Assembly: GCA_021781625.1 (NCBI GenBank)
Contig: JAJXWL010000091.1
Coordinates: 1 to 7,356 of the forward strand
Origin: a bacterium
GTDB taxonomy: Bacteria; Spirochaetota; Spirochaetia; JABEVK01
Direction: 5' to 3'
Length of the DNA stretch: 7,356 bases
The translations under genes were made by a program, and so were the position numbers. Positions 2,997-7,356 of the stretch are shown piece after piece. The notes beneath the pieces are model-generated. The model had not been told where the DNA came from, did no database searches, and saw only the letters and a list, made by a program, of their open reading frames with translations. Position 1 is the first letter of the stretch. Each line of letters begins with the position of its first letter.

Positions 2997-4568
2997 CTAC
3001 CACAGGTATTGCACCATGAGCTGACAAGTAACGTTGAAAACATTGTTGGTAGGAACTTGGTTACGGTTATAGTCCGTAGCCCACGAGAACAATCCCGAAA
3101 ACACCCAGCTCTTCCAAAGGTAGTCGGTTCGCAGTGCCGTTCGCATCTCGACATCGTTCATGTTTTCGCGGTTCGAAGTTCCTGTGACAGGTAATGTTCC
3201 CAAGTACAACGCCGAAACGTCGTTTGCCCAACGGCGGAACTCAAACCCAAAGTGCCACGAAGGGTAGTACAGGTCTGCATACAAGTACTGAGCCTCTGAG
3301 CCGTTCCCGATGCCACCACCTAGCACCATTCCATCATTCGTATAGCCAGCGCCATAGCTTGACGACCAACCAGAATAAAAATCGTACCCTTGATAATACC
3401 CATTATAATTAATGAGGCTTTCTACCGCTTGCGATAGGATAGTTTCTTCGACGCCGACCCCCAAAATCCCTCGCTCTGGCAAAGTAAAGGTCTTTTTCAT
3501 CCCCAAGGAATAAGCTTGCTCATGATTCGGGTTAATCCAGTACATCGAGATGGGGCTGTAGTCGTTTTTGCCCCATTCCCCATACGTTTCAAACCCAATC
3601 GAGGGGAACTTCAGGTCGTAGGTCAACGAGACGTGTTGATGACTCACTCCCTTACCTAAAGTATTAGAACTATTACCCGGGTCAAATAAAAAGAGTGCCG
3701 TGGCGATTTGCGGGTCCAAGTCATTCCAGTTCGAAATGATGGTTCGTCCCGCCCCTATGGTGAGTTCCGGAAAGAACGACGGCTGGTACCCAACAAATAA
3801 CCCGCCAAAGAACCGGTCCGAAGGCCCGGCATTCGGGTCCCAATAGGGGGACGTGTTCAATTTGCCGTACATCAGCTGGGCTTCAACTTTTCCAGCCGGA
3901 GTGGGCAGGGTGTTGAGGCCCAAACGCAAGTGCGGTATGCCCTCTGCGTTGGCACTTAAGAGCAAGGGGTTAAAGACGGTCGGGCCAAACACGGCATTCT
4001 GATTGCTCGCCGAAAGCACCATCGGCCCCCAATTCAGCCGTACTTCGGTATTCTCTAGCCCGACGTGGGCAAAAGGGTCAGTCCCAAAACGCTGAGGGGT
4101 ATCTATATATTGTCCATCCGCCGACGCCAGGGGCTGAGCGGCGATCCCCGAAGGCTTTAAGGCAAAATCTAGGTTCTGCGAACCCCAGGCTTCTAATCCC
4201 AAACGAGCTGTTAAGTACCCCCAAGCCAAAGTCCCCGAAGCCTTTGACCAGCCGGTAAGGCCTTTACCATGCCAGATTCCCCCCGTATTAAAGGTCGACG
4301 CGTACGCGGTGTTCTCGACCACCCCCGCTTCACTGGTACCCATGGTAAATACCTGCTTTTTAGGGTCGGGGAGTTGCCAGGGCCCTTCATCGTGCAAGGC
4401 CCGTTCATCAATGGTGGTAAAGACCAACTGGGGAGCCTGAGCCAACCCTGCCGTCACCATCCATTGTTGATACCGCCAAAGCGGATCCTCAGGACTGGGG
4501 AGTGTCTGTGACCACAAATTCAGCGTTCCCCACAAAAAACCAAGAGATATTAGAGTTATTTTCTTCAT
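2997..4568 (-). CDS. Wzi-like capsule-assembly outer-membrane beta-barrel protein
   Basis: Predicted outer-membrane barrel of 523 residues. Residues 1-20 are a signal peptide (MKK, a hydrophobic core, LWS before Q21). The rest is rich in alternating aromatic and hydrophobic strands and ends in an aromatic residue (QYLW), as barrel substrates usually do. Regions recognisable from the Wzi capsule-assembly family are IWHGKGLTGW (98-107), the TPQRFGTDPFAHVGLENTEV block (157-176) and PLLLSANAEGIPHLRLGLN (201-219), followed by barrel strands such as FFGGLFVGYQPSFFPELTIG. Wzi of E. coli binds and organises capsule at the cell surface; the same role is inferred here, supported by the nearby GDP-fucose genes. 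The start is backed by TAGGA about 10 nt upstream (4579-4583 on the minus strand). It is transcribed divergently from the peptidase cassette. A role as a general porin is the main alternative. Confidence 0.8.
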   Translation of the reverse strand: MKKITLISLGFLWGTLNLWSQTLPSPEDPLWRYQQWMVTAGLAQAPQLVFTTIDERALHDEGPWQLPDPKKQVFTMGTSEAGVVENTAYASTFNTGGIWHGKGLTGWSKASGTLAWGYLTARLGLEAWGSQNLDFALKPSGIAAQPLASADGQYIDTPQRFGTDPFAHVGLENTEVRLNWGPMVLSASNQNAVFGPTVFNPLLLSANAEGIPHLRLGLNTLPTPAGKVEAQLMYGKLNTSPYWDPNAGPSDRFFGGLFVGYQPSFFPELTIGAGRTIISNWNDLDPQIATALFLFDPGNSSNTLGKGVSHQHVSLTYDLKFPSIGFETYGEWGKNDYSPISMYWINPNHEQAYSLGMKKTFTLPERGILGVGVEETILSQAVESLINYNGYYQGYDFYSGWSSSYGAGYTNDGMVLGGGIGNGSEAQYLYADLYYPSWHFGFEFRRWANDVSALYLGTLPVTGTSNRENMNDVEMRTALRTDYLWKSWVFSGLFSWATDYNRNQVPTNNVFNVTCQLMVQYLW

Positions 4569-4619: not shown

Positions 4620-4639
4620 CAAAGTGCAAATTCACTTTG
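4620..4639. repeat. Inverted repeat 1 in divergent promoter
   Basis: CAAAGTG, a 6-nt spacer, then CACTTTG: a perfect 7-bp dyad. No T-run follows on either strand, so it is more likely an operator or leader hairpin than a terminator. Its half-site core AGTG is shared with the second dyad 12 nt away. Confidence 0.5.
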
Positions 4640-4651
4640 TTCTTAGGGGTG

Positions 4652-4674
4652 AGCACTCAAAAAAACAGAGTGCT
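4652..4674. repeat. Inverted repeat 2 in divergent promoter
   Basis: AGCACTC, a 9-nt A-rich spacer, then GAGTGCT: a perfect 7-bp dyad ending 46 nt before the first peptidase-like start codon. It could be an operator or a hairpin in the 5' leader of the cassette transcript. No T-run follows, so it is not an intrinsic terminator. Confidence 0.5.
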
Positions 4675-4720
4675 TACCTGGCGTTGCTGGGTTAAAAATC
4701 ACCACGACTAGGAGTAACCT

Positions 4721-5302
4721 ATGTCAAAATACTTTGCTCGCTACTGGAAAGACAGCGCCTACGACGCCTCTTCACCAGAGTCCATGACCGGACTGAAGCG
4801 AAAACTCACCTTCCCCTGGGGAGAGGAAACCCTCGATATGAGCTTCTTTCAAGCTGCCGTATCGTCGGTATCAACCTTGGGAGGCTCGGTAAAACTTTGC
4901 CTCAACGGCAACGAGCTTGTTCCCGAGCACGTCTTACTTGAATGGTTTCTAGACCACGAGAATCTCGAAAGGATGGACTTTATCTACCGTAGCCTTCCCG
5001 CCGACGAAGCCGCTCAGATGAACGCTTTCACCTGGCTGGCGAATGCCGTGCGAGACGTGTTCAACATCCAGGCGGCCATGATCGAAGACCTTACAGTCAA
5101 AGACATGATCGAGTACCTCAAAACCAAGAACGTGCTCCAGATCGAAAGTCAAGACAAGGAATACTTCGCTCTGGTTGGCTATGAAGGAAACGAGGAGGAC
5201 GACGAATGTTTCGTCACCAAAGAAGGTTGGCAACACGATGGCCAATTCGGAATGGATTGTCCAAATCAACTCTCACCCCGTGCCATCGCGTACTGGCTAT
5301 AA
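4721..5302 (+). CDS. C39-like papain-fold protein, catalytically dead paralogue (copy 1)
   Basis: Protein of 193 residues, first of three tandem paralogues. I do not know a named gene for it; the fold is assigned through copy 3, which has the C39-type cysteine peptidase motifs. Aligned with copy 3, the Cys position is S41 (DMSFFQAAV against ETCGPTAAI), the His position is E147 (KEYFALVGY against GHYLALVAY) and the Asp position is E168 (ECFVTKEGW against NEFIYHDSW). All three catalytic residues are therefore replaced while the surrounding framework remains, including EWF at 74-76, the N-terminal YWKDSAYDAS stretch and the C-terminal PRAIAYW. No signal peptide or membrane helix is visible, so the protein is probably cytoplasmic. 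TAGGAG sits 6 nt before the ATG. It opens the five-gene cassette behind the divergent promoter. An intact frame with all catalytic residues lost suggests a retained non-enzymatic role such as binding or inhibition. Confidence 0.75.
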   Translation: MSKYFARYWKDSAYDASSPESMTGLKRKLTFPWGEETLDMSFFQAAVSSVSTLGGSVKLCLNGNELVPEHVLLEWFLDHENLERMDFIYRSLPADEAAQMNAFTWLANAVRDVFNIQAAMIEDLTVKDMIEYLKTKNVLQIESQDKEYFALVGYEGNEEDDECFVTKEGWQHDGQFGMDCPNQLSPRAIAYWL

Positions 5303-5312
5303 CACAAAACTT

Positions 5313-5318
5313 AAGGAG
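5313..5318 (+). promoter_or_regulatory. Ribosome-binding site fixing the start of copy 2
   Basis: AAGGAG is 6 nt upstream of the ATG at 5325. The frame is open further upstream to an ATG at 5175, but that part overlaps copy 1 out of frame and has no homology to the paralogues, so 5325 is the true start. Confidence 0.85.
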
Positions 5319-5324
5319 AAACAC

Positions 5325-5915
5325 ATGAGTATCATTGGAGCAAAACGCTGGGATTCGAACCCCTATTTCGACTGCTACTGGCCAAACTTGGCGGGGCAGA
5401 AAAGAGTCGTCCCTAATCCCTTAGAGGATATCACTATCGACATGAGTGGACCCCAAGCCGCAGTGACGGCCATTGCCGCCACAGGTTTTAATGTCCTTCT
5501 CAAACCCCTGGGAAACTTTATTCCTCGTCCCGAAGGTCTGTACGTGAGCTGGTTTCAAAAGCCCGAACACGCCGAATACTTTGACCATTACTACAAGGTC
5601 ATCGACAAAATCATCATGGACGACTGGTATTCTTTCTTTGCTTCAGAATTCTTTAGCTGTTTTACAACCGAGCTAGATAAACTGAGTGTCAACGAGGTCC
5701 TGAGAAACCTTCGCCACAACAGAGCCCTGCAAGTTCGTTACAAAGGCACCGAGCACGATATCGCGTTGGTAGCCTACGATACCCAAACGAACGAGTTTAT
5801 CCTCAAAGAAGCTGACCAGTTTTCCCCAGTTCCCGAAGACAAGCTCGTCGAGCTGTTCGAACCCAAAGCCTTTGCTTATGGGGCAATCCGTCCCGAAGAA
5901 TTCAGGAGATACTAA
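5325..5915 (+). CDS. C39-like papain-fold protein, probably inactive paralogue (copy 2)
   Basis: Protein of 196 residues, second of the tandem paralogues and in some ways intermediate between the others. At the nucleophile position it has S41 (DMSGPQAAV), keeping the GP that follows Cys in copy 3. The His is kept as H144 (EHDIALVAY). The Asp position is E162 (NEFILKEAD). A Ser-His-Glu set might in principle act as a weak hydrolase, but loss of Cys in this fold normally means loss of activity. Shared framework includes SWF at 75-77, NEFI at 156-159 and PKAFAY at 180-185. Unlike its neighbours it carries about 11 extra residues after the family's normal C-terminal end (IRPEEFRRY). No signal peptide is seen. 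It starts 22 nt after copy 1 with a strong AAGGAG, and its stop codon directly abuts the ATG of copy 3. Confidence 0.75.
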   Translation: MSIIGAKRWDSNPYFDCYWPNLAGQKRVVPNPLEDITIDMSGPQAAVTAIAATGFNVLLKPLGNFIPRPEGLYVSWFQKPEHAEYFDHYYKVIDKIIMDDWYSFFASEFFSCFTTELDKLSVNEVLRNLRHNRALQVRYKGTEHDIALVAYDTQTNEFILKEADQFSPVPEDKLVELFEPKAFAYGAIRPEEFRRY

Positions 5916-6521
5916 ATGGCCATTCATGGAACCTCACATTGGAACGACCGAAATAAGGCGTACTACCAACAAAGCAACAACCCGACCGAACACATGCTCA
6001 AGGTGAGACTCCCACACGGAATCTCTTGGCTTGAAACCTGCGGTCCCACTGCGGCGATCAATTGTATCGCTTCGATGGGAAACCCGGTAGAGATCTATAC
6101 CCCCGGAGGTTACCTCCCCCAGCCCGAAGAAGTCCTCAGCGACTGGTTTAACGACCCGCAAAACTTCGAACGGATGAAGCACATTTGGTCGGTTCTGAGT
6201 CCCGAGGAGGTAGCAGGGAACGAAGTCCTAGACTGGTACCCGCTGGCCCTTCGCCAAGTGTTCGATGTGGCCGCACACCTTGTCAGCGATTTAACCGCTC
6301 AAGATGCTGTAGCTCACCTGTGCAGTGGCGGTGCTCTTCAAATCTGTTTGAAGTCGCCTGGTCATTACCTCGCTTTGGTTGCTTATGACGATATCACCAA
6401 CGAGTTCATCTATCACGATAGCTGGGCAGAACGCTGGCCTGAAGGCGATGGGTTTTGCCGTCGAATGACAATGAACGAGTTCGCAACCAACCGCAGGCCC
6501 AAAGCCCTGGTGTACTGGTGA
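5916..6521 (+). CDS. C39-like (papain-fold) cysteine peptidase, intact triad (copy 3)
   Basis: Protein of 201 residues with a complete cysteine-peptidase catalytic set: C42 in ETCGPTAAINC, H150 in PGHYLALVAY and D168 in FIYHDSW. CGPTA near residue 42, GHY about 110 residues later and an HDSW-type motif soon after are the usual signature of C39-like peptidases. There is no signal peptide, no ATP-binding region and no transporter domain, so it is not a bacteriocin-processing transporter. The N-terminal pattern HWNDRNKAYYQQSNNP resembles the leading segment of phage-type C39-like endolysins, from memory only. Substrate is unknown: peptidoglycan cross-bridges or a protein are both possible. The ATG follows the copy 2 stop with no gap, using AGGAG at 5904-5908. 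The next gene begins 4 nt after its stop. It is the only copy likely to be an active enzyme. Confidence 0.82.
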   Translation: MAIHGTSHWNDRNKAYYQQSNNPTEHMLKVRLPHGISWLETCGPTAAINCIASMGNPVEIYTPGGYLPQPEEVLSDWFNDPQNFERMKHIWSVLSPEEVAGNEVLDWYPLALRQVFDVAAHLVSDLTAQDAVAHLCSGGALQICLKSPGHYLALVAYDDITNEFIYHDSWAERWPEGDGFCRRMTMNEFATNRRPKALVYW

Positions 6522-6525
6522 GACA

Positions 6526-7011
6526 ATGTTGAACACCACGCCGGAACACAAAGGACACGGCTTAGCTGCCGCAATTTGTTTTCTGGCGGGGGTAGCTCTC
6601 TTAGTGCAAAGCCCTTTTCTCCCTGCGGGAATTGGGCTGCCTGCCAGAGTCGCTCCCGCCGTCATCGCCCTGACCTTCGCGTTGCTATTCTGGGGCTTGT
6701 TAAGCGTACAGAATATTCTGCAATTGATCGCGATGATCAAAGGGCAAACCTACGTCCCCCAACAGGACAACGTACAGCAACTGGATGCTGTACAGGAGGA
6801 AGCTCATGATATGGCTCGAAAAAATCCGTCTGGCGTTAATGGGCTTAGTAGCCCTAGCCGCAGTAACGATGGGAGTAGCTTGGGGGTTTCGTTACCTCTT
6901 AGCTCGAGCACAAGCTGTCAAAGCCCAAAAAGCTCTGGAGAGCTGTCTTCAGAAACAAACCCGCCTTCAGGAGCAAACAGCTCAAGAACGGAAGTTTCTG
7001 CAAACCGCTAG
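6526..7011 (+). CDS. Small two-helix membrane protein with suspicious C-terminal tail
   Basis: Open frame of 161 residues; not recognised as a named family. Two hydrophobic helices are clear: about residues 12-32 (GLAAAICFLAGVALLVQSPF) and 43-71 (from APAVIALTFALLFWGLLS onward), joined by a short LPAGIGLPARV loop. A hydrophilic stretch follows up to about residue 93. Size and topology up to that point would suit a holin-like inner-membrane protein. From residue 94 on, the frame overlaps the next gene by 206 nt and becomes Ser/Pro/Asn-rich low complexity, as expected for an out-of-frame reading of that gene. The real protein therefore probably ended near 6809, where a TGA lies in another frame in an ATGA junction with the next start. 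A one-base loss in the purine run 6794-6801 would explain this. It starts 4 nt after the peptidase stop, with a weak GGTGAG before it. Confidence 0.6.
   Translation: MLNTTPEHKGHGLAAAICFLAGVALLVQSPFLPAGIGLPARVAPAVIALTFALLFWGLLSVQNILQLIAMIKGQTYVPQQDNVQQLDAVQEEAHDMARKNPSGVNGLSSPSRSNDGSSLGVSLPLSSSTSCQSPKSSGELSSETNPPSGANSSRTEVSANR
6794..6800 (+). promoter_or_regulatory. Ribosome-binding site fixing the start of the last cassette gene
   Basis: AGGAGGA lies 5 nt before the ATG at 6806. An in-frame ATG at 6785 would place this Shine-Dalgarno inside the coding region and has no comparable site of its own, so 6806 is preferred. Confidence 0.8.
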
Positions 7012-7054
7012 CCCAGCCGACTTAGACCGCTACGCTGACCGTTTATTCCCTTAA
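6806..7054 (+). CDS. Small single-helix membrane protein with coiled coil
   Basis: Protein of 82 residues from the preferred ATG (89 if the ATG at 6785 were used). Residues 8-30 form one transmembrane helix (RLALMGLVALAAVTMGVAWGF). Residues 33-68 are a charged, Gln/Glu/Lys/Arg-rich amphipathic helix likely to form a coiled coil, with a single Cys at 47, and the protein ends in ADLDRYADRLFP. This membrane anchor plus coiled coil architecture is that of Rz-type inner-membrane spanins, but similar shapes occur in many unrelated small proteins, and I do not recognise the family. It is the last gene of the cassette, with a strong ribosome-binding site, and is followed by an intrinsic terminator 42 nt after its stop. 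The upstream gene's frame runs through most of it, which is probably an artefact of a lost stop codon there. Confidence 0.7.
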   Translation: MIWLEKIRLALMGLVALAAVTMGVAWGFRYLLARAQAVKAQKALESCLQKQTRLQEQTAQERKFLQTASPADLDRYADRLFP

Positions 7055-7071: not shown

Positions 7072-7097
7072 TTTAGCCTTTTGATTTAGCCTTTTGA
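7072..7097. repeat. Perfect 13-bp tandem duplication
   Basis: TTTAGCCTTTTGA occurs twice head to tail with no mismatch (7072-7084 and 7085-7097), directly before the terminator stem. It looks like a recent slippage or duplication event in the trailer of the cassette. Confidence 0.9.
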
Positions 7098-7123
7098 CCG
7101 GGAGCCCACACTCCCGGTTTTTT
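7097..7123 (+). terminator. Intrinsic terminator of the peptidase cassette
   Basis: ACCGGGAG, a 6-nt loop, then CTCCCGGT form a perfect 8-bp, GC-rich stem followed at once by a run of T. It ends the plus-strand cassette. The minus-strand side has no matching T-run after the stem, so it is unlikely to terminate the convergent gene well. Confidence 0.93.
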
Positions 7124-7136
7124 ATATCTTTGTTTT

Positions 7137-7356
7137 TTACAGCTTTTCGATTTCTTCTTCACTCAGTCCGGTCATTTTACTGATGGTCTTGATATCAAAA
7201 CGGGCCTCTTTCATTCGTTGTGCCACTTGCTTAAGTTTATCTTCACCAATTTCAAGACCTTCAACTCTTCCCTCAAATCTTCCTTCATTTCTAGCTTTGG
7301 GTATTTCGACGTTCAAATAATATTGAGCAGTTTCATCGGCAATCTTACCCTTCCAT
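7137..7356 (-). CDS. Rpn-family nuclease / transposase-like protein, C-terminal part (runs off right edge)
   Basis: The last 72 codons of a gene entering from the right edge and ending in TAA at 7139-7137. The segment has the features of the C-terminal tail of Rpn (recombination-promoting PD-(D/E)XK nuclease, transposase_31-like) proteins. These are a helical YYLNVEIPKARNEG region, a short glycine-phased repeat (EGRFEGRVEGLEIGED) and a final helix-turn-helix-like SKMTGLSEEEIEKL. The nuclease core, which would carry the catalytic acidic residues, is outside the window, so activity cannot be judged. Such proteins promote recA-independent recombination and are commonly found scattered in many copies through genomes. 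The gene converges on the peptidase cassette, with the cassette terminator between them. Related PD-(D/E)XK family proteins with the same tail are possible alternatives. Confidence 0.72.
   Translation of the reverse strand, partial: WKGKIADETAQYYLNVEIPKARNEGRFEGRVEGLEIGEDKLKQVAQRMKEARFDIKTISKMTGLSEEEIEKL

Follow-up and report, generated by a model that had tools for sequence, protein, structure and literature searches.

Positions 1 to 7,356 of contig JAJXWL010000091.1 (assembly GCA_021781625.1, a bacterium of the Spirochaetia lineage JABEVK01), called the window in the following, carry three adjacent genes, c1, c2 and c3, which are true, full-length paralogues and of which only c3 possesses the Cys-His-Asp triad of a papain-like enzyme. 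The triplet is real and constrained, and its distribution is narrow. Judged from the sequence, we consider it an even bet that c1 and c2 persist, without catalysis of their own, to partner or regulate c3 within a stand-alone, phage-derived lysis operon, which would comprise five genes including the two small membrane-protein genes hol and rz downstream of the triplet. The three paralogues are located as follows (aa, amino acids; TM, transmembrane).

4721..5302, + strand: c1, pseudo-endolysin of 193 aa with Ser/Glu/Glu at the Cys/His/Asp sites, no TM segment called
5325..5915, + strand: c2, pseudo-endolysin of 196 aa from ATG with Ser/His/Glu at these sites, no TM segment called
5916..6521, + strand: c3, papain-like endolysin-type protein of 201 aa with Q19, C42, H150 and D168, no TM or signal-anchor segment called

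The positions and lengths (193, 196 and 201 codons) given for the three adjacent open reading frames (ORFs) in a preliminary description of this DNA agree with our ORF analysis, in which the start of c2 was taken at ATG, while the mechanical ORF list opens c2 further upstream at TTG. The good ribosome-binding sites proposed there were found again as an AGGAG shortly 5' of the start codon of each gene. Paralogy over the full length was corroborated by global alignment, with identities of 60/188 for c1/c3, 57/190 for c2/c3 and 51/185 for c1/c2 and pairwise scores lying 12–17 standard deviations over 1000 shuffles. Furthermore, both copies of the window were detected by a family profile from which c1 and c2 had been left out (E 7e-15 for c1 and 2e-17 for c2); the stronger E-values from a profile containing both are circular. 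With respect to the fold, c3 gave a weak match to Peptidase_C39_2 (PF13529) of 21.9 bits, which is under the curated cut-off of 24, and no such match was observed for c1 and c2 in the profile search. PF13529.14 is given for 55/64 family proteins in a precomputed table, including P0001, the window's own c3 cluster, and a search of solved structures by sequence yielded nothing under E 0.18. The predicted models of c3 and c2 (predicted local distance difference test, pLDDT, 94.6 and 91.7) both match papain-fold structures, from which c2 is predicted to fold like c3; unrelated folds were thus not obtained for these two copies, and the C39/papain-like identity proposed earlier is retained. A C39 domain of a secretion transporter was set aside because inspection of the window by eye showed no transporter ORF and the related genes come from phages.

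Within a collection of 5.8 billion proteins, profile searches that could reach only relatives with short exact words in common unveiled four clusters of c1 and, for c2, four of full length as well as a partial one. The counts of eight given below leave out P0001, P0073 (55% coverage, another Pfam domain) and P0069 (a 99% copy of the window c2). For both P0068 (c1) and P0072 (c2) the longest contig measures 2508 bases, which is compatible with a single contig, though not proof of one. The alignments reproduced the triad C42/H150/D168 of c3 and the Ser and Glu at the Cys and Asp sites of c1 and c2, as previously described; when c1 and c2 were tested, the triad was found in neither. Ser and Glu occupy these sites in 8/8 dead clusters, and the His of c2 is retained in all four full-length c2 clusters. 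The Glu reported at the His site of c1 is indeed present in the window but is not fixed in c1, the four clusters carrying E, N, N and L, and a three-sequence alignment opens a gap at this position of c1. Apart from the lost triad, the dead copies share residues of their own: Asp40, Ser42, Gln45 and Glu168 are aligned in 8/8 dead clusters and Arg69 in 7/8, in the same way across the three compared alignments that contain all eight. Neither c1 nor c2 conserves the N-terminal motif QxNNPTE, which hardly varies among the active proteins of the family, and in the dead copies a shorter loop follows the D168 site. The states of columns 19 and 22 vary by alignment, with Gln19 found in two of four c1 and Asn22 found in c2 in some alignments and mostly not in another. 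Since such single-column readings depend on the alignment, only the loss of QxNNPTE as a whole is safe.

The order dead-dead-active, which was to be sought in other genomes according to the preliminary description, recurs in one of them: in a Spirochaetales metagenome-assembled genome (G001, locus L001) both the order c1-c2-c3-hol-rz and the upstream genes are as in the window. Within a phylum sample of 392 genomes, searched with a profile that included c1 and c2, the triplet was present only in G001, and any match at all occurred in 10 genomes, several of them weak. Among the seven genomes of the order, the triplet (again G001) and hol were each found in one, and any match in two. Protein identities between the window and L001 are 49% for c1, 53% for c2 and 82% for c3. 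By the likeness of c3 and of gmd (95%) to L001, the window, too, is probably spirochaetal. The suggested test for maintenance of the dead copies was carried out on this pair as the ratio of amino-acid-changing to silent differences per site (pN/pS), resulting in rough values of 0.43 (0.35–0.54) for c1, 0.47 (0.39–0.59) for c2 and 0.18 (0.13–0.24) for c3, compared to 0.05 for gmd (95% identical), 0.15 for the porin-like gene, 0.17 for HEPN and 0.31 for MNT. The values of c1 and c2 are well below 1 and their frames are open in both genomes, so that the claimed maintenance holds and simple decay of c1 and c2 is not supported. Since the two genomes share Ser and Glu, the proteins had already been altered when the constraint acted. 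In L001 one hydrophobic stretch was called in c1, which we take as a buried helix. In a tree with both dead copies, c1 and c2 form one clade (support 100/99; midpoint root, with a long-branch warning), and c1 alone joins c3 at 73/80 (78% of bootstrap trees).

The c3 family, papain-like and of endolysin type, has members in 48 viral loci, each fetched stretch holding a single copy. Small membrane-protein genes flank the family gene on a given side in about half of these loci; within the G257 prophage, the family gene adjoins small membrane proteins between the portal and head-protease genes, the portal being recognised by PHROGs. Cys, His and Asp are present in 45/45 full-length loci (44 viral loci and L053), which leave out the cut or split loci L042, L049, L050 and L051 and include four pairs with identical scores that are probably not independent (L007/L008, L013/L014, L019/L020 and L023/L024). 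No match was obtained by tblastn of c3 against 50,697 records of named phages; the G257 copy gave no PHROG match, and c3 gave a single weak one, of unknown kind. Dead copies were sought in the viral contigs as well, where 11 stretches fit one scanned peptide pattern and none was confirmed. Separately, on G336 contig 111 (1907-2496; L054, L062) the family gene lies in two overlapping frames. By this family membership c3 appears to be of phage endolysin type and would cleave peptidoglycan. The preliminary description had recognised the papain/C39 likeness, which stands, and had missed both the endolysin type of c3 and its holin-like and Rz-like neighbours; as these lie just downstream of an endolysin-type gene, the range of roles for c1 and c2 is narrowed. 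The single-copy viral genes belong to the same family as c3 and share the frequent small membrane-protein neighbours, but differ from the triplet in their copy number and, in G257, in their position within phage structural genes. An ordinary prophage endolysin was set aside because the viral loci carry one copy and the DNA upstream of the triplet is host-type. The features flanking the triplet are the following.

6526..7011, + strand: hol, small membrane protein with two TM segments, candidate holin, its C-terminal tail overlapping rz in another frame
6806..7054, + strand: rz, protein with one TM segment, candidate i-spanin, ATG at 6806 behind AGGAGGA
7096..7119, + strand: intrinsic terminator-like stem 3' of rz, from a terminator scan
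4621..4720, + strand: 5' region of the putative operon, with the hairpin AGCACTC/GAGTGCT and the c1 Shine-Dalgarno sequence paired in the predicted minimum-energy fold
2997-4568, - strand: divergent protein of 523 aa with 83% identity to its L001 counterpart and no hit in Pfam or NCBIfam, judged porin-like or outer-membrane-like by eye

Size, number of TM segments and position suggest that hol is a holin and rz a spanin. The start of rz was picked by eye, the ORF list opening it at 6785. It lies mostly within the hol tail in another frame and is 92% identical to its L001 counterpart over the aligned part; silent change is low in both genes, and their pN/pS values (0.40, 0.25–0.65, for hol and 0.09 for rz) are those of overlapping frames that constrain each other. 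The terminator scan revealed three terminator-like sites versus 3.5 expected in shuffles and is therefore not significant on its own; by eye, L001 shows a like stem and T run 3' of rz. Part of a further ORF is visible downstream of rz (end at 7137-7355, - strand), which has no Pfam match and presumably resembles Rpn/PD-(D/E)XK transposase-type proteins.

On the other side of the triplet, the 5' region folds with z-scores of -2.67 in the window (4621-4720) and -3.01 in L001 (6738-6835), each versus 200 shuffles, and one stem pair is changed on both sides in the two-sequence alignment. No Rfam match was found up to E 5, and a sigma-70 scan gave 0 sites versus 2.0 expected; the structured region could be a translational control of the operon. 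Further upstream and on the opposite strand, the porin-like gene is followed by a MntA-like ORF, whose match is below the cut-off, with its HI0074-type partner (2255-2973) and by a GDP-mannose dehydratase gene. Beside this pair, two overlapping ORFs (1759-2258, - strand) look like one frame-split gene. In L063 the upstream genes run on into epimerase, Wzz, aminotransferase and nucleotidyltransferase genes, and by its gene content the upstream DNA is assigned to polysaccharide synthesis, not to a phage. Around the lysis-type operon, the window shows no phage structural genes.

In the mechanism we propose, the five genes would be co-transcribed as one phage-derived lysis operon residing on the chromosome of a spirochaete-like bacterium. 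The dead copies would have been born by duplication of a c3-like gene, after which the changes from Cys to Ser and from Asp to Glu would have abolished catalysis; both are presumably inactive. As c1, c2 and c3 of the window all lack a called TM or signal-anchor segment, c3, as the active papain-like endolysin, would stay in the cytoplasm beside c1 and c2 until the inner membrane is opened by hol, the candidate holin, and rz would act on the outer membrane. Most likely, c1 and c2 would bind c3 while still cytoplasmic, perhaps also one another, and would govern the activity, the stability or the release of c3. The constraint together with the shared retooled residues argues for such a partner or regulator role, and the changed N-terminal motif with the shortened loop argues against mere substrate competition. 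More specifically, and only as a tentative possibility, two pseudo-endolysin subunits retooled from the enzyme may hold or license the active c3 as a hetero-oligomeric endolysin in a bacterial, non-phage lysis operon.

Several observations weigh against the proposed lysis operon with non-catalytic partners. In about half of the viral loci, no small TM ORF flanks the family gene on the side considered. Neither hol nor rz scored above any family cut-off, no holin or spanin family being matched, and neither had a phmmer match among the viral-locus ORFs of at least 60 residues. In a scan of the + strand of the window after 6400 (ORFs of at least 25 residues) no lipobox ORF, i.e. no o-spanin, was found. 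Only ~300 nt are visible 3' of rz in the window and ~150 in L001, so a prophage is possible on that side. Phage_portal (PF04860) and Phage_sheath (PF04984) had no match in the incomplete G001, but PF04860 also misses G257, which has a portal by PHROGs, and the negative for G001 is consequently a weak one. The pN/pS values stem from one genome pair with silent sites near saturation (pS 0.62–0.71), and in a tree with c2 alone, c2 and c3 stand together in 2% of 200 bootstrap trees.

Among the alternatives, c1 and c2 might be wall- or ligand-binding versions of the fold, which would pass together with c3 via the lesion made by the holin and keep c3 on the peptidoglycan, in the manner of binding subunits with genes of their own. 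This is rather unlikely in our view, although the fold is kept in the c2 model and the nucleophile helix, His strands and Glu strand of c2 are more invariant across the four clusters (33/45) than the rest (55/151; Fisher p 1.5e-5), these segments having been picked by hand and forming part of the fold core. The same comparison for c1 gave 18/36 versus 59/157 (p 0.19), and with QxNNPTE lost and the loop shortened the original substrate is probably not bound in the same way by c1 and c2. We regard it as unlikely, too, that a degraded prophage ends at this locus, with c1 and c2 as leftovers on their way out. The phage family of c3, the faster evolution of c1 and c2 and the sequence 3' of rz, which lies mostly outside the window, would fit such leftovers, but their pN/pS values, the open frames, the later onset of constraint than of the Ser and Glu changes, the full length of all eight dead clusters and the conserved gene order, 5' region and terminator-like stem in both genomes speak against them.

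A serine-type hydrolase in a papain fold is known from silicatein, and with its conservative swaps c2 (Ser/His/Glu) might be another, giving an operon with two chemistries. This is distinctly improbable: in none of the four alignments compared does c2 place a Gln at the position of Gln19, which is invariant in the family (109/109) and probably the oxyanion residue, three of four c2 lack any Gln before the Ser, and Ser and Glu are just as fixed in c1, which has no His. A role of c1 and c2 as decoys or immunity factors versus incoming phages with the same endolysin family would agree with the many related genes in viral contigs and with the few clusters of dead copies; it is nevertheless highly improbable, as the active endolysin-type, holin-like and Rz-like genes in line with c1 and c2 are not needed for defence.

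Lysis is commonly regarded as being controlled through holins, anti-holins and membrane-tethered endolysins. In PlyC and CD27L/CTP1L a catalytic endolysin chain is accompanied by a separate or truncated non-catalytic partner; unlike c1 and c2, these partners are binding domains and not dead paralogues of the catalytic domain. Dead peptidase paralogues kept as partners of an active enzyme are known from PqqF/PqqG and ClpP/ClpR, with other folds and functions. Type 10 secretion systems, which release cargo proteins through lysis of part of the cell population, are represented by ChiWXYZ of Serratia marcescens and HolA/PepB/Rz/Rz1 of Yersinia entomophaga (PMC10847048). They likewise combine holin-like, endolysin and spanin-like genes of apparent phage-lysis descent outside a visible prophage, but differ from the present locus, which has a papain-like endolysin, two dead endolysin paralogues, another phylum as host, no o-spanin found and no known cargo; on paper the operon resembles a type 10 secretion system, of which it is a candidate, given the o-spanin not found and the short stretch visible 3' of rz. 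In the phage Mu system an endolysin is controlled by another phage-lysis protein, as proposed here, but the controlling protein, releasin gp25, is membrane-tethered and acts on a SAR endolysin (PMC9239132), whereas no TM segment is called in c3. No described tandem of dead and active endolysins came up in the literature searches, mostly at the level of search results.

The c3 family is of use in itself, given its 48 viral loci, yet the two tested members, c3 and the G257 copy, are without a strong PHROG match. Apparently dead copies, devoid of the full Cys-His-Asp triad, that are kept intact beside a presumed wall-cutting enzyme suggest an endolysin with dedicated non-enzymatic partners, and a conserved dead pair beside an active endolysin would point to control of an enzyme by its own pseudoenzymes. 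A hetero-oligomeric endolysin, if true, would give lysis a control layer besides the holin, and the bacterial use of phage lysis cassettes would extend to an uncultured spirochaete-like lineage.
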